Assembly: GCA_021835025.1 (NCBI GenBank)
Contig: JAKBQY010000043.1
Span: 1-58,041, forward strand
Length of the DNA stretch: 58,041 bases
DNA from: Thermoplasmata archaeon
GTDB taxonomy: Archaea > Thermoplasmatota > Thermoplasmata > Thermoplasmatales > Thermoplasmataceae
Direction of reading: 5' to 3'
This document shows positions 2,404-25,767 of the stretch, one piece after another. Positions within the stretch are counted from its first letter, which is position 1. Each line of letters starts with the position of its first letter. Both the position numbers and the translations under genes were made by a program. The notes under the pieces are model-generated. The model searched no databases. It had not been told where the DNA came from and worked only from the letters and a program-made list of their open reading frames with translations.

Positions 2404-3447
2404 ATGGATACATTCTCGGATTTTATAGATTATCTGAATAAAAATCGTAACATAATAAGAAAGTCAATGAAAATGGATGAAAAGTCAGATATATATCTAC
2501 TGCTTAAAGATGCATTCAACCAGAATTTCCACGATTTTAAGCCGCATGACCCGGAAAATATAAATGTCGCTTCAACCGACAGTTCAGAATTTGTAAGAAT
2601 GCTTTATATTGGGAAAAATATTGTAATTATAAGGGCATATACCATATATAAAAATGAAATTTCCAAGCATTTTATTGCCGATATGGTTGCAGTGAATCCT
2701 GAAGAACTCATGAACTTCAAAATTCTCTTGATGGAATATGCGGAACATAAATCCATAATAAATCTTCTTGATAAATCCAGCCCCGAATATATTTTTGTTG
2801 ACGGCTCTTTAAATGGAAGACTTTCGCATAGCACGGAGGCTCTTAAAATAGAAAATTATCAGGGATTCATGGTAGAATATTTTAGAACCCTAAAGGAAAT
2901 GATTAAAAAGGCATACGATAAAAATGCCAAGCTCATATTTATAGCGAAAAGCAGCTATTCAGATAGCTTTAAAAACTATTTATTAAACTCAATCAGGCCT
3001 GAACTCTTAAATTCAGATCCGTTAAAAAATGAAATAAAAATATATGCAAATGATCATGCAATTATCAAGGCAATGGCTCATTCAAGAGGATATACAACAC
3101 CAGTTATGTATAAAAAAATACTTGGTGGCTTTGATGTAAATTATGTATCATTTGATGTTTTGCCGAAAGTTGAGGATTTGCCAATGATGGTCCATATTCT
3201 TGCAAAGGATTTCCAGAAGGAAGATTTGAATGAAGCCCCGTATAATATCGATGAAAATATCATAAATTTAATATTCTACGGGTATACAAGTTACAGGGTA
3301 TATAATCTTTGGCTTGTTGATGTTGACAAAAAGGTAAAATTCAGGAAAAATGAAATGGAAAATATTTATATGAGGGCTTTTGAAAAGGCAACAGGAATAA
3401 CGTTCTATGAAACAAGGGGTGAAAGACGTGTTAGGATCAGGGTATGA
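2404..3447 (+). CDS. nurA: NurA 5'-3' nuclease
   Basis: A 347-residue protein, first in an operon with herA, mre11 and rad50. NurA is the Mn-dependent nuclease that works with the HerA translocase to resect DNA ends for homologous recombination. The NurA signature FVDGSLNGR is seen at about residues 132-140, with Asp133 as the expected metal ligand, and further conserved acidic stretches occur toward the C-terminus (VSFDVLP; LWLVDVDKK). The start at 2404 is chosen over 2332 because a TATA-like box lies 24 nt upstream of it. The 3' end overlaps the start of herA, indicating translational coupling. Confidence 0.9.
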   Translation: MDTFSDFIDYLNKNRNIIRKSMKMDEKSDIYLLLKDAFNQNFHDFKPHDPENINVASTDSSEFVRMLYIGKNIVIIRAYTIYKNEISKHFIADMVAVNPEELMNFKILLMEYAEHKSIINLLDKSSPEYIFVDGSLNGRLSHSTEALKIENYQGFMVEYFRTLKEMIKKAYDKNAKLIFIAKSSYSDSFKNYLLNSIRPELLNSDPLKNEIKIYANDHAIIKAMAHSRGYTTPVMYKKILGGFDVNYVSFDVLPKVEDLPMMVHILAKDFQKEDLNEAPYNIDENIINLIFYGYTSYRVYNLWLVDVDKKVKFRKNEMENIYMRAFEKATGITFYETRGERRVRIRV

Positions 3448-4960
3448 AATAGGGTATATTATAGGAGAGAATTCATCGAATAAGTTTCAATTTGTAATAT
3501 CCGATGATACAGACTTAAAGAAATGGGAATATGTTTACTTAAAGGTAAACGATGCAACGATAGTCGGGAGAATTGAGGAGATAATATCAAAAAGTGATTT
3601 ACTGAACAACAATATGGATTATGAAAGCATAAAAAAATATACGGATAACAATATAAATGATTTTGTCAATATATGTTTATCAACGATACTTGGAAAATTT
3701 GATGGGCACAATTTAGTCCAATCAAGGGAAATAATAAAGCCAGGAATTTCAGTATTTAAAGCAGATGAAGAATTATTGAATAAAATATTTTCATACAATG
3801 AAGAGGAATCGTTGAATATAGGTTATCTGCCAGATAATAATGTGGGCGTTTCAATAAATATAAATGGGCTGAGGCGGCATCTTGCGATTCTTGCACAAAC
3901 AGGAGCTGGTAAAAGCCATACAGCATCTGTTATTATGGAAGAATTGTTGAAGAAAGGGGCTTCTATTATTGTTCTTGACCCGCATGCAGATTATGTTTTC
4001 ATGAAAAAGAAAACCGATGGCAAGATATATTCTAATAATGTTGGCGTATTCCGAACACCATTGAGCACAGGAAGATACACAAAGGACGATATAGGCATTA
4101 TCAATAATTTTACCATAAGGTTCCAGGATTTGGGCCCTGACGATATAAAGGGCATAATGGATATAAGGGAAAATTATACAAATTTAAATGCCATAGTTGA
4201 TGATATATACAAAAAAATGAAGGGCAAAAAGGATTTGAACGACTTTCTTGAAACTGCTGAAAAACTATCTGATGAAGAGTATAAAAAAATAAGGGGGAGA
4301 CTGTCATTTCTCAAAAAAATAAAGGATATTTTTGAGGATTACAGCACCGGAATAAAGGATTATTTATCCCCGGGAAAAATGTCTGTAATGGATTTATCGG
4401 GCATGGACCAATTCCTGGCAAATTATTTTTCCTTTAGAGTTATGAGTGAAATTTATGATTCAAAACTTTCAATGGAATTCAGGTATCCGGTATTTGTTTT
4501 TGTGGAAGAAGCGCATAATTTTGTCCCGCCAAAGAGAAATTCAGGGATAGCAGGAATGATAAAAAAAATAGCAGGGGAGGGAAGAAAATTCGGCATATTT
4601 CTTGTTGTAATTACACAAAGGCCGGGAAAAATAGATTCAGACGTTTTGAGCCAGTGCAATTCACAGATCATTTTAAGGGTAACAAATCCATCCGACCAGA
4701 ACGCCATTCTTGAAAGCAGTGAAAATATTACACAGTATCTCATGCAAGACCTTCCATCCCTAGATATAGGCGAAGCAATAATCGTGGGCGAAATCGTCAA
4801 AATGCCTGTTATAATCAAGATAAGGGACAGGGAAACAATGGCCGGCGGTTCCGATATTGACCTCATAGGATTATTGAAGGATGCCCGGGAGGAAGTGAGG
4901 AAAATGAATGACCCCGATGAGATAAAGAAAAAAAACAGAACACTTTTGGGTGATTTATAA
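3407..4960 (+). CDS. herA: HerA hexameric DNA translocase/ATPase
   Basis: A 517-residue HerA/FtsK-type ATPase. An N-terminal HAS-barrel-like region (about 1-140) precedes the P-loop AQTGAGKSH (about 163-171, Lys169), and the Walker B segment VFVFVEEAHNF lies near 362-372. A later ITQRPGKID segment matches the sensor region of the family. HerA forms a ring that pumps DNA and activates NurA alongside Mre11-Rad50. The ATG at 3407 overlaps nurA by 41 nt; GTG at 3419 or 3428 is an alternative start close to the conserved GYEIGYIIG. The stop overlaps the mre11 ATG by one base. Confidence 0.93.
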   Translation: MKQGVKDVLGSGYEIGYIIGENSSNKFQFVISDDTDLKKWEYVYLKVNDATIVGRIEEIISKSDLLNNNMDYESIKKYTDNNINDFVNICLSTILGKFDGHNLVQSREIIKPGISVFKADEELLNKIFSYNEEESLNIGYLPDNNVGVSININGLRRHLAILAQTGAGKSHTASVIMEELLKKGASIIVLDPHADYVFMKKKTDGKIYSNNVGVFRTPLSTGRYTKDDIGIINNFTIRFQDLGPDDIKGIMDIRENYTNLNAIVDDIYKKMKGKKDLNDFLETAEKLSDEEYKKIRGRLSFLKKIKDIFEDYSTGIKDYLSPGKMSVMDLSGMDQFLANYFSFRVMSEIYDSKLSMEFRYPVFVFVEEAHNFVPPKRNSGIAGMIKKIAGEGRKFGIFLVVITQRPGKIDSDVLSQCNSQIILRVTNPSDQNAILESSENITQYLMQDLPSLDIGEAIIVGEIVKMPVIIKIRDRETMAGGSDIDLIGLLKDAREEVRKMNDPDEIKKKNRTLLGDL

Positions 4961-6087
4961 TGGCAAGATTCCTGCACCTCTCTGATACCCATCTTGGTTA
5001 TAAGGAATACATGATGGATTTGAGGGAAAATGATTTTTATGAATCATTCAACGAGGCCATAGATATAGGTCTCGAAGAAAATGTGGATTTTTTCGTTCAT
5101 ACCGGGGACCTGTTTGATACATGGTCCCCATCCAACAGGGCTCTGAATGAATTCAAAAAGGCTGCATTGAAATTGTACAATAAAAATAAAACAATGTACC
5201 TAATAATGGGAGATCATGATCGACCTAAAAGAACCGATGAAATTGCATCAAGAATCTTCGATTTTCTTGGTGTAAAACTTCTGGGTGTTAATAACATTGA
5301 AAATATTGTTCTTAATTACAATAATGAGGATTTATTGATTTCTGGATTATCCAATATGAAAGGCCTGAGAAAGGATAATATCGCTGAAGAATACAAAAAG
5401 GGCGATATTGCCGCAAAAGGATATAAAAATTCAATTTTAATGTCGCATCAGGGTGTATACCCCTATTTAATAAAAGAAGCGTGCGAGGTTGATTCAAAGG
5501 ATTTGCCATTGAATTATAAATATCTGGCATTTGGCCATGTCCATGATTCATATCTTATAAATGATAGATATCCCGTTTTCACATATGCAGGATCAACCGA
5601 TATAAACAGTTCCAACGAGTTGAAGCATTTTACAAAAAATAAAAAATCGGTAAACCTGGTTGATATTGAAAATGGCAATGTCAACGCACAGCAGATTAAA
5701 CTCAAGTCAACAAGATACCAGGCTGAGATAAAATCCGATTACAATAATTATATAAGGGATATAGATGAAATAATTAATCAGAAGATGGACAATGAAAAGG
5801 AACCATTGCTGTTGATAACAATACATGGTGATGTTGACCGGGATGAGATAAGGAAAAAAATAAAGGAAATAAAAAATGCTTTGGTTAAGGGCCCAGTATT
5901 TGAAAACGAAATAAAAAGAATATCAGAAAAACCAAATCTCACAAAACTCATTGATTACTTTCAGGCTTATTTTAATGACAATGATCTTTCAGAACTAGCC
6001 AATAGCATTTATGAAACCATAAAAAATGAGGACGTGAACACATCATACAACCTTATAAAAAATCTGTTTGGTATGGTGGAAACATGA
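4960..6087 (+). CDS. mre11: Mre11 DNA double-strand break nuclease
   Basis: A 375-residue calcineurin-like phosphoesterase. The metal-binding motifs are visible in order: LSDTHLGY (about 8-15), HTGDLFDTW (about 46-54), MGDHDRP (about 86-92), SHQGVYPY and FGHVHDS. Mre11 is the Mn-dependent nuclease of the Mre11-Rad50 complex that opens broken DNA ends before HerA-NurA resection. Its C-terminal region after about residue 250 would form the Rad50-binding part. The ATG overlaps the herA stop by one base, and the TGA overlaps the rad50 ATG (ATGA), so the four genes are tightly coupled. Confidence 0.95.
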   Translation: MARFLHLSDTHLGYKEYMMDLRENDFYESFNEAIDIGLEENVDFFVHTGDLFDTWSPSNRALNEFKKAALKLYNKNKTMYLIMGDHDRPKRTDEIASRIFDFLGVKLLGVNNIENIVLNYNNEDLLISGLSNMKGLRKDNIAEEYKKGDIAAKGYKNSILMSHQGVYPYLIKEACEVDSKDLPLNYKYLAFGHVHDSYLINDRYPVFTYAGSTDINSSNELKHFTKNKKSVNLVDIENGNVNAQQIKLKSTRYQAEIKSDYNNYIRDIDEIINQKMDNEKEPLLLITIHGDVDRDEIRKKIKEIKNALVKGPVFENEIKRISEKPNLTKLIDYFQAYFNDNDLSELANSIYETIKNEDVNTSYNLIKNLFGMVET

Positions 6088-8756
6088 TTATTGAATCCCT
6101 TGAATTGACCAATTTTCTATCGCATGAAAAAACAAATATTGTTTTTGAAAATGGAATCAACATCATCACGGGGAAAAATGGGGCTGGTAAAACAAGCATA
6201 CTGGACGGAATAAAATTCGCATTGTTTGCGGAATCAAGAAATTCCGAGAAAAACAATGAACTCATTAAAAAGGGCAAAAATTTCTTTGATATATATTTAA
6301 AATTCAATGTGAATGGTGATGAATATGAAGTATACAGGCATTTTGGGATAAAATCTGCCAAAAATGCTGAAAGGCTAGCGTACATTAAAAGGAATTCAAT
6401 AATAATAGCCGAAACATATGAGGGTATAACACAGGAAATATCAAAAATTCTTGGCGTTTCCAGGGAAATATTTAAAAATTCGGTATTTGTTGAGCAGGGG
6501 CAGATGGATTCATTGATTTCAGGAACTCCAAAGGAAAGGAAACAGATATTCAGTGATATAATAGGGCTGACATCTCTTTCAAAAAATGCTGATAAACTGA
6601 GGGAAATTATAAACAGATTGAGGGCAGAATCCCTCCTACTGCAGCATTCAAAGGAAAGGGCGGAAGAGCTCAGTGATGATATAACAAAGTTGAAAGGTAA
6701 AAATGAGGAATTATTTAAAGAAAAAAATACGCTAGAAGAAGGGGACAGAAAGTATTCACTTGAGATAGGGGAACTTGAGGAAAATATAAAAATCAAAACA
6801 CAGTATGAAAATGCGATGAAAACGAGGGAGAATGAGATGCATAGATACGAGGACAACCTTAAATCCCTGAAAATATCCAGAGATGGAATACAAAAAGAAC
6901 TTTTATCATACTCTGGCGATAAAAAAATACTTGATGAACTTGAATCTGATATATATTATACAAACAGGGACAGAATCAATGAATATTTTAATATTAAAAA
7001 GGAAAAAAGATTTCTTGAAAAAAGTTTGGATGACCTAAATAAAAATATATCAAATTATGAAACAAACTTGAATAATATGAAAAATCTCGCTGAATACCAC
7101 GAAAAATATCTCAACACTAGAAATTTATATGAAAGAAGTTTAACGGAAATCAAAAAATACAACAATGCATACAATGAATACAATCAGGCCAGCATGAGGT
7201 TGAAGGCAATAAATGATATTCTTCTAAAAAAATCAGAAAACATTGAAAAATTTAAGAACCAGTATCCTGATATAAACAATTTAAGGGAGCAGAAAGAAAA
7301 TATACAGAAACGCATACAGGAGCTTAATTCAAGAAATTCCTTCATAAAGGCTGAGGTTGCACAATGCAATTCAAGGGTTAATGAATATCGTTCAAACATG
7401 GTTACACTGAATGGCAAAAATCAGTGCCCCCTTTGTGGAGAAACACTTACTCCGGAGCATTTAAAGGGTATCGAGGAGGAATACAATAATAAAATAGGGG
7501 AAAATATAGGCCAAATAGAGAAATTGAAAGGGGAAAAAACACAGAATGACGATTATATAAAAAAATACAATGGGGAATATGCATTGTTGAATTCTGATGC
7601 CATTGAACAATACATTATTGATTTAAGGGAAGTAAAAACCCTTGAATCGGAAAAAAAAGAAATCATTCAAAAATTGGACATTCTAAAAAATGACCATGAT
7701 AGATATCTCGATTTAAGCGATGAAAATGGGAAGCAGGAAAAAATTCTCAGGGAAACTGAACCATATGAATTAAGGTATACAAAATATTCAAATTTAGTTT
7801 CTGAAATGGACATAAATGGGATGAAAAAAAATCAGGGGAAGCTTGAAAATGATATAAAAAACAACGATGAAAAGCTGGTGGACATCGAGCAATCCATTGG
7901 AATGGTCCCAGATGAATCAAGATTCAACAGTGTTTATAAAATTTCCCAAAGAATCAATGAGCTCAAAAAGAAACAGGAAAGTGCAATAAGTTTAAGGGAA
8001 AAGCTTGCAAATATAGATGAACAGGCAGATAATTTAAATAGAAATATTGAGGGCTTGAAAAATGAAATTTCGTCTTATGAAAATGAACTTGCCAGATTTA
8101 ATGGGATAGACCAAAAATATGAAAAACTGAAAGCCGAGATGGAATACAATAAGCAGAACCTCATCAGAAAGGAGGTTGCAATAAACCAGAATAATGAAAC
8201 AATGAATGAATATGATGAAAAAATAAAAAACCTGAATAAGGATGTTGAAAACTACAATAAAATTGCCGATGCAATAAGGAAGCTGGATAAGGTCAGGGAA
8301 TCCTACGATGTCAATGGAATACAATCAATGATCAGAAAGGATGCATCAGTATCCATAACAAATACTGCAAGGAAATATTTGACATCGTTCAATCTAGATT
8401 TTGATGACATATCCATCGATGAAAATTTTAATATTAAGGTTACGCAGAATTCCATGGAGCAGTTCATAGAATCCCTGAGTGGTGGTGAAAAAACCGCCAT
8501 GGCAATAGCTTTAAGATTATCCGTTGCAAATTATGTGCTTGACAGGATAAGCACGGTAATCATGGATGAACCAACAAATTTCCTTGACGAGGACAGAAGA
8601 AACAATTTAAAGGATATAATTCAGTATTCCTTAAAGGGAGAAAATATAATACCACAGATGATAATGATAACGCACCACAGCGAATTGACATCGGTTGCAG
8701 ACATTTCATATGAGGTCATTAAAACAGGGGGAAGTTCAAGGGTTATTTCAATATAA
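6084..8756 (+). CDS. rad50: Rad50 SMC-like ATPase
   Basis: An 890-residue ABC-type ATPase with the full Rad50 layout: Walker A ITGKNGAGKTS (about 28-38), Q-loop FVEQGQMDSLI (about 135), long coiled coils, the zinc hook CPLCGE near residue 447 at the middle of the coiled coil, the ABC signature SLSGGEKTAMA near 797, and Walker B VIMDEPTNFLDE near 826. It bridges DNA ends together with Mre11. The ATGA overlap with mre11 and the length are normal for archaeal Rad50. Many in-frame AAA/GAA codons reflect the Lys/Glu-rich coiled coil. Confidence 0.96.
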   Translation: MIIESLELTNFLSHEKTNIVFENGINIITGKNGAGKTSILDGIKFALFAESRNSEKNNELIKKGKNFFDIYLKFNVNGDEYEVYRHFGIKSAKNAERLAYIKRNSIIIAETYEGITQEISKILGVSREIFKNSVFVEQGQMDSLISGTPKERKQIFSDIIGLTSLSKNADKLREIINRLRAESLLLQHSKERAEELSDDITKLKGKNEELFKEKNTLEEGDRKYSLEIGELEENIKIKTQYENAMKTRENEMHRYEDNLKSLKISRDGIQKELLSYSGDKKILDELESDIYYTNRDRINEYFNIKKEKRFLEKSLDDLNKNISNYETNLNNMKNLAEYHEKYLNTRNLYERSLTEIKKYNNAYNEYNQASMRLKAINDILLKKSENIEKFKNQYPDINNLREQKENIQKRIQELNSRNSFIKAEVAQCNSRVNEYRSNMVTLNGKNQCPLCGETLTPEHLKGIEEEYNNKIGENIGQIEKLKGEKTQNDDYIKKYNGEYALLNSDAIEQYIIDLREVKTLESEKKEIIQKLDILKNDHDRYLDLSDENGKQEKILRETEPYELRYTKYSNLVSEMDINGMKKNQGKLENDIKNNDEKLVDIEQSIGMVPDESRFNSVYKISQRINELKKKQESAISLREKLANIDEQADNLNRNIEGLKNEISSYENELARFNGIDQKYEKLKAEMEYNKQNLIRKEVAINQNNETMNEYDEKIKNLNKDVENYNKIADAIRKLDKVRESYDVNGIQSMIRKDASVSITNTARKYLTSFNLDFDDISIDENFNIKVTQNSMEQFIESLSGGEKTAMAIALRLSVANYVLDRISTVIMDEPTNFLDEDRRNNLKDIIQYSLKGENIIPQMIMITHHSELTSVADISYEVIKTGGSSRVISI

Positions 8757-8800
8757 TTATATTCATAAACATAAAATACGGATGTAACATTATTATTAAA

Positions 8801-9343
8801 ATGATGGATATTGATTATTCAGATAATGTCTATAAACCTGCGGAGGATACATATTTAATAATTGATAATGTTGTGCCGGAAGGCAATATCCTTGAAATAG
8901 GGGCGGGAACTGGCATAATATCAATTTTTTTCGCCCTTAAGGGATATAATGTAACTTCATCCGATATATCTGGAGATTCAATAGACCTCATAGAAAAAAA
9001 TGCGATGAAAAATCATGTGAACCTGGACATAATTAAATCAAATCTTTTTGAAAATATTCATGGTGTATATAACACAATTATCTTCAACCCCCCTTATTTG
9101 CCGGTTGAAAATGAAAGCCCCCAATGGTCAGGCGGAATGGATGGTTTTGAGACCACGGGAAAATTTCTTGATGATGCATATAAATACCTGGATAAGGATG
9201 GAAGTATATACATAATATTATCGGACTTAACAGATATAAACAAATTTATTGGAAAATATAAAATATACAGGTTCGAGAAGGTTAAATGTGAACATTTTGA
9301 TTTTGAATCCATTATTTTATACAGGCTTAAAGTGAGATTATGA
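8801..9343 (+). CDS. HemK2/Mtq2-type protein N5-glutamine methyltransferase
   Basis: A 180-residue class I SAM-dependent methyltransferase. The SAM motif ILEIGAGTGIIS occurs near residues 30-41 and the diagnostic NPPYLP motif near 97-102; NPPY binds the substrate amide. The short length and the N-terminus DYSDNVYKPAEDTYLI match the archaeal/eukaryotic HemK2 group, which methylates the GGQ glutamine of class 1 release factor (aRF1). Two ATG codons are adjacent (8801 and 8804). Its stop overlaps the following GTPase by ATGA, so translation termination and ribosome-linked functions are coupled here. Confidence 0.85.
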   Translation: MMDIDYSDNVYKPAEDTYLIIDNVVPEGNILEIGAGTGIISIFFALKGYNVTSSDISGDSIDLIEKNAMKNHVNLDIIKSNLFENIHGVYNTIIFNPPYLPVENESPQWSGGMDGFETTGKFLDDAYKYLDKDGSIYIILSDLTDINKFIGKYKIYRFEKVKCEHFDFESIILYRLKVRL

Positions 9344-10422
9344 CTATAGAAGAAAGGATAAGGGAAATTGAGGACGAAATAAAGAAAACACAGAAAAATA
9401 AAGCTACGGAGAAGCACATAGGCCTCTTAAAAGCCAGAATGTCAAAACTGGAACTTGAAGAGGAGTCGCATAAGAAATCTTCAGGTTACGGATTTTCAGT
9501 TTCCAAAAGTGGGGATGCCACCATAGCCCTGGTGGGTTATCCAAATGTTGGAAAAAGCTCACTTTTAAATGCTCTTACAAATAAAAAAAGCGTTGTTGGC
9601 AATTTTGCATTCACAACTCTTACCGTTATACCAGGCACACTTAATTACAACGGGGCACAGATTCAAATTCTTGACCTCCCTGGAATTATTGATAATGCAG
9701 CCATTGGTGCTGGAAGGGGAAGGGAAATAATAAGCACAGTTAGAAATGTGGACCTTATTGTTCTGGTTACGGATGTTGATGTCAAGGGGCTTAATAGAAT
9801 AATTTCTGAACTTTACAAATCTGGAATCGTTTTAAACAAAAAAAGGAAGGATATTTCATTCAAAAAATCAAACTATGGTGGATTGAGAATACATAAACCA
9901 AGAAAGGTTGACATAAATGTTAATGATATAAGGGACATAGCAAAGGAATTCAGGGTTGTAAATGGGGACATTTACATAAGGGAAAATGTGGACATGGATG
10001 ATTTAATTGATTTTTTTAAGGGAAATATAGTGTATATTAAATCTTTTTTAGTTGTCAACAAAATTGATATGCCACACGATGGAAAAAAATTGGGGGAAAA
10101 ATTATCGGAATTTGATAACTACCTGGAAGTATCAGCAACAACAGGTTATAATATTGAAAATATGAAGGAAATGGTATATAGATCCCTGGACCTTGTGAGA
10201 ATATATATGAGAAATAAGGCGGGCGATGTGGATTACGAACGCCCCCTAATTCTGAGCCTCGGCTCAACTGTGCGTGATGTTTGCAGAAAAATAAGCAGGG
10301 AGATGATACCATCATTCAGGTATGCAATCATAAGCGGGCCAAGCAGGAAAATTGAATTGCGTGTTGGCCTGGATTATAATGTAAATGACCAGGATGTTAT
10401 AACATTAATAAGTAAATATTGA
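9340..10422 (+). CDS. DRG-family GTP-binding protein with TGS domain
   Basis: A 360-residue Obg/DRG-type GTPase. An N-terminal helical region (EERIREIEDEIKKTQKNKA) leads to G1 GYPNVGKSSLLN (about 66-77), G2 with a conserved Thr (FTTLTVIPG), G3 DLPGII, G4 NKIDMP, and a C-terminal TGS domain that includes SLGSTVRDVCRKI. The archaeal/eukaryotic DRG family binds GTP and K+ and acts on ribosomes; the exact role in archaea is not established. Translationally coupled (ATGA) to the release-factor methyltransferase gene upstream. Confidence 0.92.
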   Translation: MTIEERIREIEDEIKKTQKNKATEKHIGLLKARMSKLELEEESHKKSSGYGFSVSKSGDATIALVGYPNVGKSSLLNALTNKKSVVGNFAFTTLTVIPGTLNYNGAQIQILDLPGIIDNAAIGAGRGREIISTVRNVDLIVLVTDVDVKGLNRIISELYKSGIVLNKKRKDISFKKSNYGGLRIHKPRKVDINVNDIRDIAKEFRVVNGDIYIRENVDMDDLIDFFKGNIVYIKSFLVVNKIDMPHDGKKLGEKLSEFDNYLEVSATTGYNIENMKEMVYRSLDLVRIYMRNKAGDVDYERPLILSLGSTVRDVCRKISREMIPSFRYAIISGPSRKIELRVGLDYNVNDQDVITLISKY

Positions 10423-15161: not shown

Positions 15162-15314
15162 ATCAACAAAACTAAAATATGCAATACAACACTATAAACT
15201 TTCGAACCTATCCAGATCGCAAACCCAATGGCTTTTGCTCTTTAAATTATTTGTAAAAATTATTACCTATTGTAAGAATTTAAATATTTTCCTTGAATTA
15301 TACACTGTGATATT

Positions 15315-16454
15315 TTGATTGAAGAATACAATCTTTTAAGGGAAAGCGTGAGGCAGTTCTCGGAAAAAGAGATTTCTCCCCTTGCGAAAAAAATTGACCG
15401 TGAAAATTATTTTCCAGTTGATCTATTCAAAAAAATGGGGTCTCTTGGATATCTTGGCGTTACCATTCCGGTGGAATACGGAGGGTCCGGATCTGATTAT
15501 ATTTCCCAGGCAATAATAGAGGAAGAAATAAGCTATGAATCCGGGTCAATAGGATTGTCCTATGGTGCCCACAGCAACCTATGCCTTGATAATTTATACA
15601 GAAATGGGTCTGAATATATAAGGGAAAATTATGTCGCCCCCCTGGCAAAGGGAAAAAGCATAGGTTCCCTGGGCATGACTGAGCCATCATCCGGAAGTGA
15701 TGCATTATCAATGAAAACGTATGCTGACTTTACTGGTGGTAAATACATAATAAATGGCAACAAAACATTCATAACAAATGCTCCCTATGCCGATATATTT
15801 CTTGTATATGCAAAAACTGGAAAAGATATAACGCCATTCGTGGTTTTATCATCAGACGATGGCTTTTCCAGGGGAGTGGAATTCGATAAATTTGGCATGA
15901 GGGGATCACCAACCGGAGAAATATATTTTAGGAATGTTAAAGTAGATAAAAATCGCATGGTGGGCTCGCTCAACAATGGAAAAAATGTAATGTTTTCGGG
16001 TTTAAATATGGAAAGGTCAATACTTGCATTCAATTCAATAGGCATAGCTAGAAAGGCACTTGACCTTGCGGTTAATTATTCCATTGAAAGAAAGCAGTTC
16101 AACAGGCCCATACATGAATTTGAGCTGATACAAGAAAAACTTGCGTATATGTATACCAAATTCGAATCTTCAAGGGTATTTGCTTACGAGGCACTCAACC
16201 GTGTGAATAACAATAAGATGGATTCACTGGACGCTGCCTCATCAATTTTATATGCATCGGAATCATGTGAATATATAGCAAGGGAAGCCATGCAGATTTA
16301 TGGAGGCTATAGCTATATCAAGGACTTTGAAATAGAGAGGGTGTTCAGGGATTCATTGCTTTTAACAATAGGCGCAGGAACAAATGAAATAAGGAAAAAA
16401 ATTATTTCGGAAGCTTTAATAAGGAAATACAGGGAAAATGGTGGTAAACTTTGA
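15315..16454 (+). CDS. Acyl-CoA dehydrogenase, isovaleryl-CoA dehydrogenase-like active site
   Basis: A 379-residue FAD flavoprotein of the acyl-CoA dehydrogenase fold (MTEPSSGSDALSM, the FAD/substrate segment; RKQFNRPIHEFELIQEKLA; MQIYGGYSYIKDFEIER). The Glu of the usual EGT catalytic motif is absent (IGAGTNEIRKK). Instead Glu233 in LNMERSILAFNSIG sits where isovaleryl-CoA dehydrogenase carries its catalytic base. The preferred substrate may therefore be a branched acyl-CoA, by inference. The start is a TTG at 15315, the only in-frame start before the conserved N-terminus; a TATA-like TTTAAATATT lies upstream. The stop overlaps the thiolase gene start. Confidence 0.9.
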   Translation: MIEEYNLLRESVRQFSEKEISPLAKKIDRENYFPVDLFKKMGSLGYLGVTIPVEYGGSGSDYISQAIIEEEISYESGSIGLSYGAHSNLCLDNLYRNGSEYIRENYVAPLAKGKSIGSLGMTEPSSGSDALSMKTYADFTGGKYIINGNKTFITNAPYADIFLVYAKTGKDITPFVVLSSDDGFSRGVEFDKFGMRGSPTGEIYFRNVKVDKNRMVGSLNNGKNVMFSGLNMERSILAFNSIGIARKALDLAVNYSIERKQFNRPIHEFELIQEKLAYMYTKFESSRVFAYEALNRVNNNKMDSLDAASSILYASESCEYIAREAMQIYGGYSYIKDFEIERVFRDSLLLTIGAGTNEIRKKIISEALIRKYRENGGKL

Positions 16455-17695
16455 ATGACGTTTATATCGTTTCGGCTGGCCTGTCAAAATTCAAAAAATA
16501 CAATTATGATGAGGATTTCCGCCTGATGGTAAAAAGGGCCTTTGATTACGCCCTGAATGATACAGATATTACACATAAGGATATAGACGGTTCTGTATCC
16601 GCATATTTTTCAGACCATATACAGGGGCAATTAATAGCAGGTGCAATGACAAATGATTATATTGGGCTGGCAACAAAACCTTCAAAGAGAATAGAAGGAG
16701 GAGGGGCCACTGGAGGGCTGGCTTTTCAAACGGGTTATGAAGAAATAGCATCAGGAAATATGGAAACGTGTGCTGTTTATGGCTTCGAAAGCATGTCCCA
16801 TTTAAATACGTGGAAGGGCAACGATGTTATCGCCCTTGGAAGTGACTCAAACTTTGATTATCCCCTTGGGGGATTTTATACAGCATATTATGCCCTGATG
16901 GCAACTAGGCACATGCATGAATTTGGCACGACCCATGATCAAATGGCAATGGTTTCAGTAAAAAATCATGGAAACGCAATCCATAACCCATTCGCACAGA
17001 GTCCAATGAAAATTGCAGTTGATGACGTTCTAAATGCACCCATGGTGGCAACTCCCCTGACAATGCTGGATATAAGCCTGATGTCAGATGGTGCTGCGTG
17101 TGTTATTCTTGCTTCCGAGGAAAGGGCAAAAAGCCTGTGCAAAAACCCTGTTAAAATAAGGGCAATAGGCTCTTCGAGTGATACAATGAGGCTATCTGAT
17201 AGGCCATTTGGTAACGTTCCCTTATTGGCATGTGAATCGGAAGACGACTATAAAAATTTGAAATATCCTGGCGTACACTCATTCAGGGCGGGAAGATTGG
17301 CGGCAAAAATGGCATATGAAAGGGCAAATATAAAAGATCCATTAAAGGAGATAGACTTTGCAGAATTGTACGATTCCTATACATCGGCTGAAATACAGGC
17401 ATATGAGGACCTTGGATTTTGCAAATATGGTGAAGGTGGCAAATTCATAGAAAAAGGTTATTCGGAAATAAATAATAAACTGCCTGTTAATCCTGAAGGG
17501 GGTTTGCTGGCATCTGGCCATGCCATAGGGGCCACTGGAATAATGCAGGCCGTATATGCCTTCTGGCAGTTGCAGCATTCAATTGGAAAACATTTCAACA
17601 GCAACAGGCTGCAGGTTGAGGATGCAAAAAAGGGTGTGATACATAGCCACGCCGGTACCGGTGCATATGAAACGGTATCCATTCTTGAGAGATGA
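16451..17695 (+). CDS. Thiolase-fold protein lacking the acyl-accepting cysteine (Ltp2-like)
   Basis: A 414-residue SCP2-thiolase-like protein. The C-terminal histidine motif GGLLASGHAIGATGI and the terminal SHAGTGAYETVSI are present. At the position of the usual catalytic Cys (aCaSG) the sequence reads RIEGGGATGGLAFQ (about 80-93), with glycine instead. Cys-less relatives that partner DUF35 proteins, such as steroid side-chain Ltp2, act as retro-aldolases rather than thiolases. The next gene is a DUF35 protein, which fits that pattern. TTG start at 16451 overlaps the upstream stop. The alternative is a degenerate thiolase or a structural partner. Confidence 0.85.
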   Translation: MNDVYIVSAGLSKFKKYNYDEDFRLMVKRAFDYALNDTDITHKDIDGSVSAYFSDHIQGQLIAGAMTNDYIGLATKPSKRIEGGGATGGLAFQTGYEEIASGNMETCAVYGFESMSHLNTWKGNDVIALGSDSNFDYPLGGFYTAYYALMATRHMHEFGTTHDQMAMVSVKNHGNAIHNPFAQSPMKIAVDDVLNAPMVATPLTMLDISLMSDGAACVILASEERAKSLCKNPVKIRAIGSSSDTMRLSDRPFGNVPLLACESEDDYKNLKYPGVHSFRAGRLAAKMAYERANIKDPLKEIDFAELYDSYTSAEIQAYEDLGFCKYGEGGKFIEKGYSEINNKLPVNPEGGLLASGHAIGATGIMQAVYAFWQLQHSIGKHFNSNRLQVEDAKKGVIHSHAGTGAYETVSILER

Positions 17696-17700
17696 TTTAA

Positions 17701-18165
17701 ATGAAAAATGATGTGAAAGGAACAGAAATATATAAAACCGACCCACTGGTAAAAAGATGGGATTATTCTCTATCATACATACACAGCTATGCACAAGATT
17801 CAGAATTTTTTAAATCACTTGGAAAAAATATACTCTTGGGTTCATATTGCAAAAAGTGCAATTACAAATATGGAACATACAGAAAATATTGCATGTACTG
17901 TGGCGGTGAAACCCAGGATATAGAATTGCCATTAAATGGCAAAATACACACATTCACAACATGCTATTACAGTGGTGAATCATTCATGAATGACATTCCA
18001 TATACCCTGATACTTGTAGAATTTAAGGGCATAGATTCACTATTCATGTCAAGGCTGATAAACAAGGAAAATATAAAAATAAGTATAGGAATGAAGGTTA
18101 AGGCAAAATTTAAAAGACTTCAGAAATTTGATGTGAATGATGTTTACTTTATTCCGGAGTTATAA
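17701..18165 (+). CDS. DUF35 OB-fold protein with rubredoxin-like zinc ribbon
   Basis: A 154-residue protein with a four-cysteine zinc ribbon (YCKKCNYKYGTYRKYCMYCG, about 59-78) followed by an OB-fold (GKIHTFTTCYY; YTLILVEFKG; IGMKVKAKFKRL). This is the standard DUF35 arrangement. DUF35 proteins form complexes with thiolases, HMG-CoA synthase or Ltp-type aldolases and hold or channel CoA intermediates. It follows the thiolase-fold gene by 5 nt, so the two almost certainly make one complex. Confidence 0.88.
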   Translation: MKNDVKGTEIYKTDPLVKRWDYSLSYIHSYAQDSEFFKSLGKNILLGSYCKKCNYKYGTYRKYCMYCGGETQDIELPLNGKIHTFTTCYYSGESFMNDIPYTLILVEFKGIDSLFMSRLINKENIKISIGMKVKAKFKRLQKFDVNDVYFIPEL

Positions 18166-22160: not shown

Positions 22161-22344
22161 AATATGTTATTATTAATGCATATAAAAAGTAATTTTAATA
22201 AATATATATAGATATAATGAATATACATATATTTATTTATTATCTATTTAGATAAACTATACGCTAAATAAATTAGTAATGTAGGGGGTTCAAAAATTTT
22301 TATATAAAGTTACGTATTGTCATTTATACTCAATTGTGATAAAT

Positions 22345-25300
22345 ATGATAACAACTATAAAAAATGTTATAAAAAGGGACGGTACCAGAGTTTCGTTCGA
22401 TAAGGGCAAGATTGCAATGGCAATTTACAAGGCCATGCTTTCCGTGAAAATGGGTTCAATGGAGGAAGCAAACAAATTTGCGGATATTGTAACGGAAGAA
22501 ATACAGAAAGGAGGACATGAGCCAAGTGTTGAAGCCATTCAGGATGCCGTAGAAAACATATTAATGTCACATAAAATTGGCGGAAAGTCATATATACCTG
22601 TTGCAAAAGCTTACATACTGTATAGGGAAAAAAGAAAGACGATCAGAGAGGAAAAGGAGCTCCTCGGTGTTAAGGACGATCTTAAATTAAATGTAAATGC
22701 GATAAAGGTACTGGAGGCCAGATATTTATTTAAGGATTCTGAGGGTAAAATAATTGAAACGCCAAAACAGATGTTTCATAGGGTGGCAGTCCATCTGGGC
22801 ATAATACAAGGTTTGTATGATTATATTGATTTCCAGAAAAATGGAAACGTGCACAATGAAGGTTCTGTATATTCTGGTCTATCAAAAACACAGATCGATG
22901 AATTGAAAAGGGCATTCAGTGAGCTTAAAAAGGAAAAACAGGTTACCGGGGACTTTGAAGAATTCATGGATTTTATTCAAACAAAAAAAACCAGGATAGA
23001 TTATTATATAGGCAAATTCGAGAATGCCATGATAAATCTGGAATTCATTCCAAATTCTCCAACTTTAATGAATGCAGGCGGTCCACTTGGGCAGTTAAGT
23101 GCATGTTTCGTTCTACAGGTAGATGACAGCATCGACTCAATATTTGATACCCTAAAATATACAGCTGAAATACACAAATCAGGAGGAGGTACAGGATTCT
23201 CATTCACACGATTGAGGGCCAGCGATGACATAGTGGCATCCACAAAGGGTGTTGCTTCAGGCCCTGTATCATTTATGAGGATATTTGATGTTACAACAGA
23301 TGTGATCAAGCAGGGTGGAAAGAGAAGAGGAGCCAATATGGGAATCTTGAATTACAATCATCCAAATATAATGGATTTCATTCTTAGCAAGGATTCCGAA
23401 AACAAAGTTTTGAGCAATTTCAATATATCTGTTGGCGTTGACGATGAGTTCTTTGAAAAGCTTGATAACGATGATTATATCGAATTGGTAAATCCAAGAG
23501 ACAATAAAATAATGGGAAAAATAAGGGCAAAAACATTATGGGATTCAATCATAAACCAGGCATGGAAAACCGGAGACCCGGGAATGATATTCCTCGATGA
23601 AATCAATAGAAAGAATCCGGTGAAGAACATAGGATATATAGAATCTACAAATCCGTGTATAACCGGTGATACAAGAATATACACATCCGAGGGAATAAAA
23701 ACAGCTAAACAGTTATATGATGAAGGAAATCCATTAAATATAAAAATAGACGGTAGATTTGGAGGGGAATTTAAAAAATCATCAAATGTTATATATACTG
23801 GATTTAAAGATGTATATAAAATAACAACAAAGGAAGGCTTTGAAATAAAAGTTACCGGTGACCATAAAATATATAGTGAAGAGAGAGGTTGGGTAGAAGC
23901 ATTAAAACTGAGAAATGAAGAAAAAATAAGGATATTAAATGAAGGAGGCTCCTTTGGATCTTATGGCAGCTTTAAGGAGGGCAGGGTTCTGGGTTGGCTT
24001 GTTGGCGATGGCCATATAAACAATGGAAATAATAATGACCGTGCAGTATTATCTTTCTATGCACAGGATCGTGTAATAGCAAAAGATTTTGAAAACTATA
24101 TAAACGATATAATCAGACCATCCACAAATAACAGGGATTATCATGTTGGTATGGTAAATATTGAAAGCAGAAATTGCACGACAATTGCATCGGAAAGATT
24201 AAAGGAATTTGCTTTAGAATATGGATTAATAGAAGAAAAGTTGAAAGTTCCCGATAAGGTATTTGAAGGCAACATGGAAATGCAAAAAGGATTCATTCAG
24301 GCATTATTTGAGGCGGACGGCACAGTATTGTTCTCAAAAAAGTCCAGGTACTCGGTAAGACTTGGTTCAATAAGTTTAAATTTACTAAAACAGGTTCAGA
24401 TGCTATTATTGAATTTCGGTATATATAGCAGAATATATAAATATCGTAAAAAAGCTGGTTTAAGAATGCTTCCAGATGCAGATAGAAATAAGAAACTATA
24501 TGAAACACAGGATTTCCATGAACTTGCTATATCTGGAATAAACTTGATAAATTATACAAATTCTATAGGTTTTATATCTGAAAGAAAAAATACAAAGCTA
24601 AACGAAGTTGTAAATAGCTACAAAAGAAGTCCTTTATCTGCTTTATGGGAAGCAAGGATAGATAAAATAGAATATATCGGCAAGGATGATGTATACGATC
24701 TTGTAGAACCATCTACTCATTCATTTGTAGCTAGCGGAATTGTGGTACACAATTGTGGCGAACAACCGTTATTGCCTTACGAATCATGCAATCTTGGTTC
24801 AATAAATCTTTCAAAATTTGTTGAAAATGGTAAATTCAATTACGATAGGTACAGGGATATTATTCGCACAGCAACGGATTTCCTTGAAAATGTAGTGGAC
24901 GCCAATAAATTTCCTGTTGAAAAAATCAAAAACATGACACGAACAACCAGAAAAATTGGCCTTGGATTGATGGGCTTTGCAGACATGCTTATAAAGCTGG
25001 GAATACCATACAACAGCAATGAAGCCCTGGAGATGGGAGAGCATATCATGAAGTTCCTTAATGATGAGTCCCATAGTGAATCAGAGAGGCTTGCAGAAGA
25101 AAGGGGGGTTTTTCCGGGATGGTACGGATCTGATTATGAAAAAGCCGGAATAAAAATGAGAAATTCAACCACAACAACAATAGCACCAACGGGAACAATA
25201 TCAATAATAGCAGGATGTTCATCCTCAATAGAGCCGTTATTCGCAATAGCATTTGTTAGGCACGTTCTTAATGGCCAGGAACTCCTTGAGGTAAACCCAC

Positions 25301-25767
25301 TATTCGAGGAAGCCCTGAGAAACAGCGGATTGTATTCCACTGATATAATGGAAAGAGTTGCCCATACAGGAAATTTGAAGGACACCGCACTTCCTGAGGA
25401 CATTAAAAAGGTATTTATCACAGCGCAAGAAATAAAACCTGAATGGCATGTAATGATGCAGGCAACATTCCAGAGATACTGCGATTCCGGTGTATCAAAG
25501 ACAATAAATATGCCCTTTGATGCAACACCAGATGACATTGCAAGGGCATACAGGCTTGCCAAGGACGTTCATTGCAAGGGCATAACAGTATACAGGGACA
25601 AAAGCAAATCACAGCAGGTTTTATATGCTGGGGACGGCAACAACGATGAGAAAAAAAAAAGCGATGAGGAAAAAAAAATTGACATATTATTGAAGATGCC
25701 AGATAAATTCTTAAAACTTGAGTCAACATTTGATCCAGCCTGCCCTACTGGAAAATGTGACCTTTAA
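22345..25767 (+). CDS. nrdJ: Adenosylcobalamin-dependent (class II) ribonucleotide reductase with intein
   Basis: An intein-containing class II RNR; about 774 residues without the intein. An N-terminal ATP-cone (IKRDGTRVSFDKGKIAMAIY) is followed by NSPTLMNAGGPLGQLSACFV (first active-site Cys), the thiyl-radical segment NPCGEQPLLPYESCN, and a C-terminal redox pair CPTGKC. It reduces ribonucleotides using B12 as the radical source. ATG 22345 is chosen because GTGAT, a core SD sequence, lies 4 nt upstream; that GTG (22336) is the alternative start. A TATA-like TTTATATAAAG lies near 22298. No class I partner gene is adjacent. Confidence 0.95.
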   Translation: MITTIKNVIKRDGTRVSFDKGKIAMAIYKAMLSVKMGSMEEANKFADIVTEEIQKGGHEPSVEAIQDAVENILMSHKIGGKSYIPVAKAYILYREKRKTIREEKELLGVKDDLKLNVNAIKVLEARYLFKDSEGKIIETPKQMFHRVAVHLGIIQGLYDYIDFQKNGNVHNEGSVYSGLSKTQIDELKRAFSELKKEKQVTGDFEEFMDFIQTKKTRIDYYIGKFENAMINLEFIPNSPTLMNAGGPLGQLSACFVLQVDDSIDSIFDTLKYTAEIHKSGGGTGFSFTRLRASDDIVASTKGVASGPVSFMRIFDVTTDVIKQGGKRRGANMGILNYNHPNIMDFILSKDSENKVLSNFNISVGVDDEFFEKLDNDDYIELVNPRDNKIMGKIRAKTLWDSIINQAWKTGDPGMIFLDEINRKNPVKNIGYIESTNPCITGDTRIYTSEGIKTAKQLYDEGNPLNIKIDGRFGGEFKKSSNVIYTGFKDVYKITTKEGFEIKVTGDHKIYSEERGWVEALKLRNEEKIRILNEGGSFGSYGSFKEGRVLGWLVGDGHINNGNNNDRAVLSFYAQDRVIAKDFENYINDIIRPSTNNRDYHVGMVNIESRNCTTIASERLKEFALEYGLIEEKLKVPDKVFEGNMEMQKGFIQALFEADGTVLFSKKSRYSVRLGSISLNLLKQVQMLLLNFGIYSRIYKYRKKAGLRMLPDADRNKKLYETQDFHELAISGINLINYTNSIGFISERKNTKLNEVVNSYKRSPLSALWEARIDKIEYIGKDDVYDLVEPSTHSFVASGIVVHNCGEQPLLPYESCNLGSINLSKFVENGKFNYDRYRDIIRTATDFLENVVDANKFPVEKIKNMTRTTRKIGLGLMGFADMLIKLGIPYNSNEALEMGEHIMKFLNDESHSESERLAEERGVFPGWYGSDYEKAGIKMRNSTTTTIAPTGTISIIAGCSSSIEPLFAIAFVRHVLNGQELLEVNPLFEEALRNSGLYSTDIMERVAHTGNLKDTALPEDIKKVFITAQEIKPEWHVMMQATFQRYCDSGVSKTINMPFDATPDDIARAYRLAKDVHCKGITVYRDKSKSQQVLYAGDGNNDEKKKSDEEKKIDILLKMPDKFLKLESTFDPACPTGKCDL
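23656..24753 (+). mobile_element. Intein with LAGLIDADG homing endonuclease in nrdJ
   Basis: The in-frame insert of 366 codons starts at Cys1 (CITGDTRIYTSEGIKTAKQL) and ends with the splicing motif SGIVVHN before the +1 Cys of CGEQPL. N-terminal block A, block B (VTGDHKIYSEERGWVEA) and the terminal His-Asn are all present, so protein splicing should be functional. Two dodecapeptide motifs, LGWLVGDGH (about intein residue 110) and IQALFEADGT (about 215), indicate a homing endonuclease. The insertion is at the codon for the thiyl-radical cysteine, a known RNR intein site. Confidence 0.95.

Follow-up and report, generated by a model that had tools for sequence, protein, structure and literature searches.

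What might a thiolase-fold protein do once its nucleophilic cysteine has been lost? The question is raised by three close-packed plus-strand genes in the window (the whole stretch of 58,041 nucleotides analyzed here, contig JAKBQY010000043.1 of the Thermoplasmata archaeon assembly GCA_021835025.1), which encode an acyl-coenzyme A (CoA) dehydrogenase, a thiolase-fold protein (THL) and a DUF35 protein, in that order (Table 1). The source archaeon is an acidophile that falls in one genus group with Acidiplasma aeolicum. The best reading of these sequences is that THL is probably a DUF35-assisted, non-thiolytic retro-aldolase for a beta-hydroxyacyl-CoA of some kind. That THL-DUF35 specifically cleaves 3-hydroxyisovaleryl-CoA, derived from leucine, to acetone and acetyl-CoA is a narrower proposal held more tentatively, at slightly short of an even balance. 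An initial annotation of this DNA had envisaged an archaeal CoA-thioester aldol or retro-aldol step on a branched substrate; a retro-aldolase is indeed the best-supported idea, but "archaeal" proved too narrow because loss of the cysteine is family-wide, bacteria included.

THL carries the Pfam domains Thiolase_N and Thiolase_C_1 and is a member of PRK06365, scoring 713.7 bits against the NCBIfam model NF004982 (curated cut-off, 695), which names a "thiolase domain-containing protein," assigns no function and is silent on the missing cysteine. Based on an alignment of 90 homologues with the sequences of PDB thiolases, from which all residue counts for THL are taken, Gly85 stands where 6esq, 7yvy, 7pxp and 6hsj have their nucleophilic cysteine, and this position is glycine in 89 of the 90 homologues. 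The sole exception is an ordinary Cys-bearing paralogue from a Dehalococcoidia bin, in which a Cys-bearing (HDCF) and a Cys-less PRK06365 paralogue lie in tandem (L171, 4111-5502 and 6001-7251). The acid/base cysteine of classical and SCP2-type thiolases is also missing from THL, with Ser309 in the HDCF motif and HSHAGTG in place of CxG. Glu305, Asp308 and Glu314 are each kept in 90/90 homologues, as is His357, and His398 is kept in 89/90. The replacement of the cysteine motif by EGGGATGG and the survival of the C-terminal histidine motif, both noted in the initial annotation, were thus borne out, while its term "Cys-less" holds for the catalytic cysteine but not for the protein, in which five other cysteines remain (107, 217, 230, 261 and 324), none of them aligned with a catalytic position. 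The family motifs GGGATGG and HD[AS][YF] recur in archaea and in bacteria of at least eight phyla, and the conserved residues, together with glycine for cysteine throughout the family, suggest a conserved non-thiolytic active site.

The strongest clue to function, overlooked in the initial annotation, is Tyr307 in the YDSY motif, a position held by His in 79 and by Tyr in 11 of the 90 homologues. In the steroid-pathway enzyme Ltp2, Tyr294 of YDHF is the base and Tyr344 the acid, and in the bile acid aldolase Sal, which has glycine at the thiolase nucleophile position, Tyr302 and Cys304 of YDCY are catalytic; the base role of the tyrosine was demonstrated by mutagenesis in both enzymes, and Sal Cys304Ser is inactive (PMC12329534). 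The GGGATGG of THL aligns with GGGAA of Ltp2 (here represented by the 6ok1 sequence) and GGASS of Sal, and Tyr307 takes the position of their base. The Ltp2-ChsH2(DUF35) pair of Thermomonospora curvata (6ok1) has in common with the window a thiolase fold with glycine for the nucleophilic cysteine, a base tyrosine in YDxF/Y, a DUF35 protein with four zinc-binding cysteines (C4), and an upstream acyl-CoA dehydrogenase step. It differs in that only the first of the two Ltp2 tyrosines has a counterpart in THL (Tyr344 is His357 here, and His296 is Ser309), that THL is placed with archaeal thiolases, that no MaoC hydratase domain is attached, and that the substrate would not be a steroid. The Sal-Shy(DUF35) aldolase of Comamonas testosteroni (9myr) likewise pairs DUF35 with Gly at the Cys position and YDxY, but its essential Cys304 is Ser309 in THL, its zinc site is Cys3His1, and it belongs to a separate clade.

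Among other known systems, the nearest PDB relative of THL by both sequence (6esq) and fold (6et9, the best match of its AlphaFold model, above 6ok1 and 9myr) is the acetoacetyl-CoA thiolase of the archaeal thiolase/DUF35/3-hydroxy-3-methylglutaryl-CoA (HMG-CoA) synthase complex. Its gene is also paired with DUF35, but it has the nucleophilic cysteine and HDCF instead of the Gly and YDSY of THL, and THL is not adjoined by a gene for HMG-CoA synthase. Benzoylsuccinyl-CoA thiolase BbsAB (7pxp) combines a thiolase fold with DUF35 and has HDAF, like the His-type relatives of THL, yet BbsB retains the nucleophilic cysteine. A putative thiolase of Sphaerobacter thermophilus (4u4e) shows the same combination as THL, with no nucleophilic cysteine, a YDSF motif, and His at the counterpart of residue 357; it is uncharacterized, distant from THL in sequence and nearer Ltp2.

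The partner protein, described in the initial annotation as a zinc-ribbon DUF35, was confirmed as such: it matches Pfam OB_ChsH2_C (PF01796) above cut-off and has the C4 zinc ribbon and the oligonucleotide/oligosaccharide-binding (OB) fold of the DUF35/ChsH2 C-terminal family, the C4 pattern being that quoted for ChsH2-type DUF35 proteins (PMC12329534). The top PDB match of its predicted model is ChsH2(DUF35) of 6ok1, followed by the DUF35 protein of 6esq. A DUF35 gene directly follows THL in 54/70 loci, and several of the loci without one reflect contig ends or losses from crude gene calling. An apparent THL-DUF35 fusion (L056) was rejected as proof of a complex, since a one-base insertion (frameshift) joins the two frames.

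In a tree built by a quick method without column 307, Tyr307 was gained twice, once in a single archaeal clade (10 rows, the Ferroplasma/Acidiplasma lineage) and once in Firmicutes UBA3576 (L172). A branch with a Shimodaira-Hasegawa-like approximate likelihood-ratio test (SH-aLRT) value of 99 separates PRK06365 from Ltp2, Sal and 4u4e, and the family falls closer to the acetoacetyl-CoA thiolases of archaea; the deep joins are unsure because of the quick method and the long reference branches. On this sequence evidence THL is outside the Ltp2/Sal clade, and because both the tree and the fold search favor archaeal thiolases, the likeness of Tyr307 to the steroid aldolases is likely convergent. 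Among loci with at least 1200 bases upstream, a dehydrogenase gene ending at most 200 bases before THL was found at 7/9 Tyr loci versus 2/61 His loci, a contrast inflated by relatedness because there were only two independent gains of Tyr.

The dehydrogenase has three Pfam Acyl-CoA_dh domains, and its closest PDB sequences are isovaleryl-CoA dehydrogenases (IVDs; 4o5m, 4kto and 1ivh). Its Leu81 and Ala85 correspond to human IVD Leu95 and Ala99 in the alignment with 1ivh; from structural work on human IVD, we take these to be pocket and specificity residues. The initial annotation had placed the catalytic base at the IVD position rather than in EGT, and this was upheld, since Glu233 lines up with Glu254 of human IVD, and GAGT stands in place of the EGT motif, with Ala for the usual Glu. 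By its sequence, the enzyme is IVD-like in all residues checked. Every genome searched of the Thermoplasmatales families f1 and f3 has an IVD-like copy (two copies are partial), and among the genomes searched the gene lies immediately 5' of THL only in the lineage of the window; in three f4 genomes, another type of dehydrogenase precedes a His-type THL.

The metabolic setting is one in which an IVD product would have no classical outlet. Thermoplasmatales of this kind are described as scavengers of proteinaceous compounds (PMC5155288). The carboxyltransferase PF01039 was detected in 0/25 f1 genomes and in none of f3 or f4, but in 12/14 control genomes. No methylcrotonyl-, propionyl- or acetyl-CoA carboxylase can do without this domain, so the first of these enzymes is absent, and 3-methylcrotonyl-CoA made by IVD would be stranded. 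Enoyl-CoA hydratases are present, encoded outside the operon, and the genome containing the window has two ordinary Cys thiolases, by which thiolysis is therefore covered. In the search for HMG-CoA lyase, the HMGL-like matches included proteins of 2-isopropylmalate/homocitrate-synthase-like length.

Under the leucine proposal, the operon dehydrogenase would convert isovaleryl-CoA to 3-methylcrotonyl-CoA, which a hydratase encoded elsewhere would hydrate to 3-hydroxyisovaleryl-CoA. This compound, a tertiary beta-hydroxy thioester, shares its chemical type with the Ltp2 substrate, and because its hydroxyl is tertiary it is not oxidizable to a 3-ketoacyl-CoA. THL and DUF35 would form a complex that cleaves a beta-hydroxyacyl-CoA by a non-covalent (retro-)aldol reaction rather than by thiolysis: the glycine loop Gly83-85 would hold the beta-oxygen, Tyr307 would, in the lineage of the window, deprotonate the beta-hydroxyl, and the acetyl-CoA enolate would receive its proton from His357, perhaps together with His398/His400. 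Cleavage to acetone and acetyl-CoA would thereby replace the biotin-dependent methylcrotonyl-CoA carboxylase branch.

Several observations weigh against this proposal. The second catalytic residue of Ltp2 or Sal has no equivalent in THL, which has His357 and Ser309 at these positions; moreover, His occupies position 307 in most family members, close relatives with IVD among them, so the family as a whole can function without the tyrosine. No hydratase gene was found in the three-gene operon, no acetone-using enzyme was identified, and literature searches turned up neither a leucine-to-acetone retro-aldol route nor any function for PRK06365. The bacterial neighborhoods also differ. The best 80 of the genome-contig matches include Chloroflexota, Bacillota, Acidobacteriota, Nitrospirota/Nitrospinia, Planctomycetota, Thermodesulfobacteriota, Omnitrophota, candidate division B38, Aminicenantes and Undinarchaeota, all at 61-66% identity; since the records are mostly metagenome bins, any single placement may be contamination, but sequences of this class turn up in many of them. 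Of 21 bacterial loci, 11 have a dehydrogenase gene nearby and 10 have the large subunit of a B12 mutase (14 and 10, respectively, in a wider count of 24). These dehydrogenases are EGT-type, unlike IVD, and the frequent mutase neighbors have Phe, Ala and Gln, the isobutyryl-CoA mutase pattern, as opposed to Tyr/Arg in methylmalonyl-CoA mutase and Ile/Asp in 2-hydroxyisobutyryl-CoA mutase. The substrate therefore need not come from leucine.

Such neighbors are an argument for a (retro-)aldolase acting on another branched-chain beta-hydroxyacyl-CoA, for instance 2-methyl-3-hydroxybutyryl-CoA (to propionyl-CoA and acetaldehyde), 3-hydroxyisobutyryl-CoA (to propionyl-CoA and formaldehyde) or longer 3-methyl-branched acyl-CoAs. 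It is in keeping with this that a 2-oxoacid dehydrogenase E1 gene follows one family member and that Ltp2 itself is established to yield propionyl-CoA in the steroid pathway. Nonetheless, we consider a different substrate unlikely, as the dehydrogenase beside the archaeal Tyr307 proteins is IVD-like in both pocket and base residues, and unbranched or 2-methyl 3-hydroxyacyl-CoAs can be oxidized and thiolyzed by ordinary enzymes that are present. We judge equally unlikely another non-covalent CoA reaction in the thiolase fold, for example a synthetic condensation or the decarboxylation of thioesters of the malonyl or beta-keto type. An enzyme that has lost its nucleophile could still decarboxylate, and a Cys-variant SLP of T. 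brucei slowly decarboxylates malonyl-CoA, but Sal does not (PMC12329534); these genomes have no carboxyltransferase to provide malonyl-type thioesters, and a tyrosine at the Ltp2/Sal base position parallels retro-aldolases specifically. A synthetic route could be fed by the same mutase and dehydrogenase neighbors, and in one locus (L166) THL is followed by FabH and FabD genes.

That THL might be a catalytically dead thiolase, a scaffold for DUF35 and other partners, has a precedent in the same genome, where neither Cys nor His survives in a homologue linked to HMG-CoA synthase. The histidine drifts in that homologue, however, while PRK06365 keeps its His357 completely (90/90), which makes a conserved reaction likely, and archaeal and bacterial members retain 61-66% identity; a dead scaffold is thus a very improbable account. 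Least credible of all is an ordinary thiolase drawing its cysteine from elsewhere in the sequence. Five cysteines do remain, and in 49/90 of the wider family Cys355 lies near His357, but Cys209 and Cys355 of the relatives are both serine in THL, and a check for a functional cysteine at a catalytic position found none.

If the leucine proposal is true, leucine catabolism has a carboxylase-free, acetone-making branch, which would help to explain leucine use by peptide-scavenging Thermoplasmatales without methylcrotonyl-CoA carboxylase, and thiolases would have become aldolases independently of the steroid enzymes. PRK06365, a large, highly conserved and unnamed family spread over archaea and eight or more bacterial phyla, would gain a testable function. 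A broader version, which we consider rather doubtful as a whole, is a biotin-free branched-chain module, common to acidophilic archaea and many uncultured bacteria, in which an isobutyryl-CoA-mutase-type B12 enzyme would bypass the carboxylation of valine breakdown and THL-DUF35 would cut 3-hydroxyisovaleryl-CoA and perhaps other 3-methyl-branched hydroxyacyl-CoAs, the Ferroplasma/Acidiplasma site having converged on the steroid-aldolase tyrosine. Some bacterial operons unite the same parts. The Phe/Ala/Gln pattern is also found in f1, f3 and f4, including the genome of the window, where isobutyryl-CoA-mutase-type large and small subunits adjoin a MeaB-like GTPase (C37; L200:3292-6317, minus strand), and f2 and f5, which are without THL, have the methylmalonyl pattern together with carboxyltransferase, so that throughout the order the type of mutase residues goes with whether a carboxyltransferase is present. 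In Cuniculiplasma divulgatum, a subunit of isobutyryl-CoA mutase is annotated and was detected by proteomics (PMC7285479). Given the Phe/Ala/Gln residues, methylmalonyl-CoA mutase was rejected for the THL-bearing families, as was, for both this genome and the bacteria, a 2-hydroxyisobutyryl-CoA mutase (Ile/Asp) as acetone-salvage partner.

In four f1 genomes (L064-L067), a further Cys-less paralogue (TTGGATGG, HDAF) has a MaoC hydratase directly before it and DUF35 after it, repeating the grouping of hydratase, aldolase and DUF35 known from the steroid systems; the operon in these four genomes reads acyl-CoA ligase, MaoC hydratase, Cys-less paralogue, DUF35, acyl-CoA ligase (in L066 at 4366-9597, minus strand). 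The window's own genome has a single MaoC hydratase, which belongs to an itaconate-type cluster. This cluster (C34; L205:4087-6806, minus strand) comprises the RipB-like MaoC hydratase, a RipC-like C-C lyase and a CoA-transferase, and looks like an archaeal itaconate-degradation cluster from matches that fall below curated cut-offs. In His-type Thermoplasmatales, the conserved neighbors of THL-DUF35 encode a Thy1-like protein, the thermosome and succinyl-CoA-ligase-type subunits; neither these nor the flanks of the unlinked IVD gene offered a pathway clue.

The thiolase homologue linked to HMG-CoA synthase lies on contig C48 of the same genome (L206, minus strand; homologue 3194-4369, HMG-CoA synthase 4353-5414, DUF35-like protein of 133 amino acids 2782-3183). 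Its nucleophilic Cys is replaced by Thr/Ser and its catalytic His by Asp/Asn/Tyr/Phe in 9/9 f1 genomes checked (including L210-L216 and L221), whereas the counterparts in f2, f3 and f5 keep both. In f1, this protein is apparently a dead scaffold in a mevalonate-pathway complex, judging from these substitutions.

Table 1. Positions of the three-gene cluster and its sequence features in the window
Feature	Position	Strand	Remarks
Three-gene cluster	15315-18165	+	Close-packed: acyl-CoA dehydrogenase, THL, DUF35 protein
TATA-like box TTTAAATA	15279..15286	+	Putative; read from the sequence
Acyl-CoA dehydrogenase	15315..16454	+	379 amino acids; TTG start
GLSYGAHSNLC substrate-pocket motif (dehydrogenase)	15552..15584	+	Identical in human IVD (alignment with 1ivh)
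Glu233 codon (dehydrogenase)	16011..16013	+	Catalytic-base position; aligns with human IVD Glu254 (1ivh)
THL	16451..17695	+	414 amino acids; TTG start; 4-base overlap with dehydrogenase stop
EGGGATGG (THL, residues 82-89)	16694..16717	+	Gly85 for nucleophilic Cys; alignment with PDB thiolases and 90 homologues
YDSY (THL, residues 307-310)	17369..17380	+	Replaces HDCF; Tyr307 at Ltp2 Tyr294 / Sal Tyr302 position
His357 in GHAIG (THL)	17519..17521	+	His in 90/90; at Ltp2 Tyr344 / Sal Gln352 position
HSHAGTG (THL, residues 398-404)	17642..17662	+	Near-invariant in family; replaces CxG motif of classical thiolases
DUF35 zinc-ribbon/OB-fold partner	17701..18165	+	154 amino acids; 5-base gap after THL
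Zinc ligands C50-x2-C53-x10-C64-x2-C67 (DUF35)	17848..17901	+	Sequence and alignment

The TATA-like box lies about 26 bases ahead of the likely start of a near-leaderless transcript. Upstream of the cluster is a divergent pyridoxal phosphate (PLP) enzyme gene, and on the downstream side convergent genes encode formate-tetrahydrofolate ligase and formiminotransferase-type proteins. Elsewhere in the window, a ribonucleotide-reductase-like open reading frame of 1143 amino acids (22336-25767) has an apparent intein inside it (CITGDTRIYTSEG ... VVHNCGEQ).

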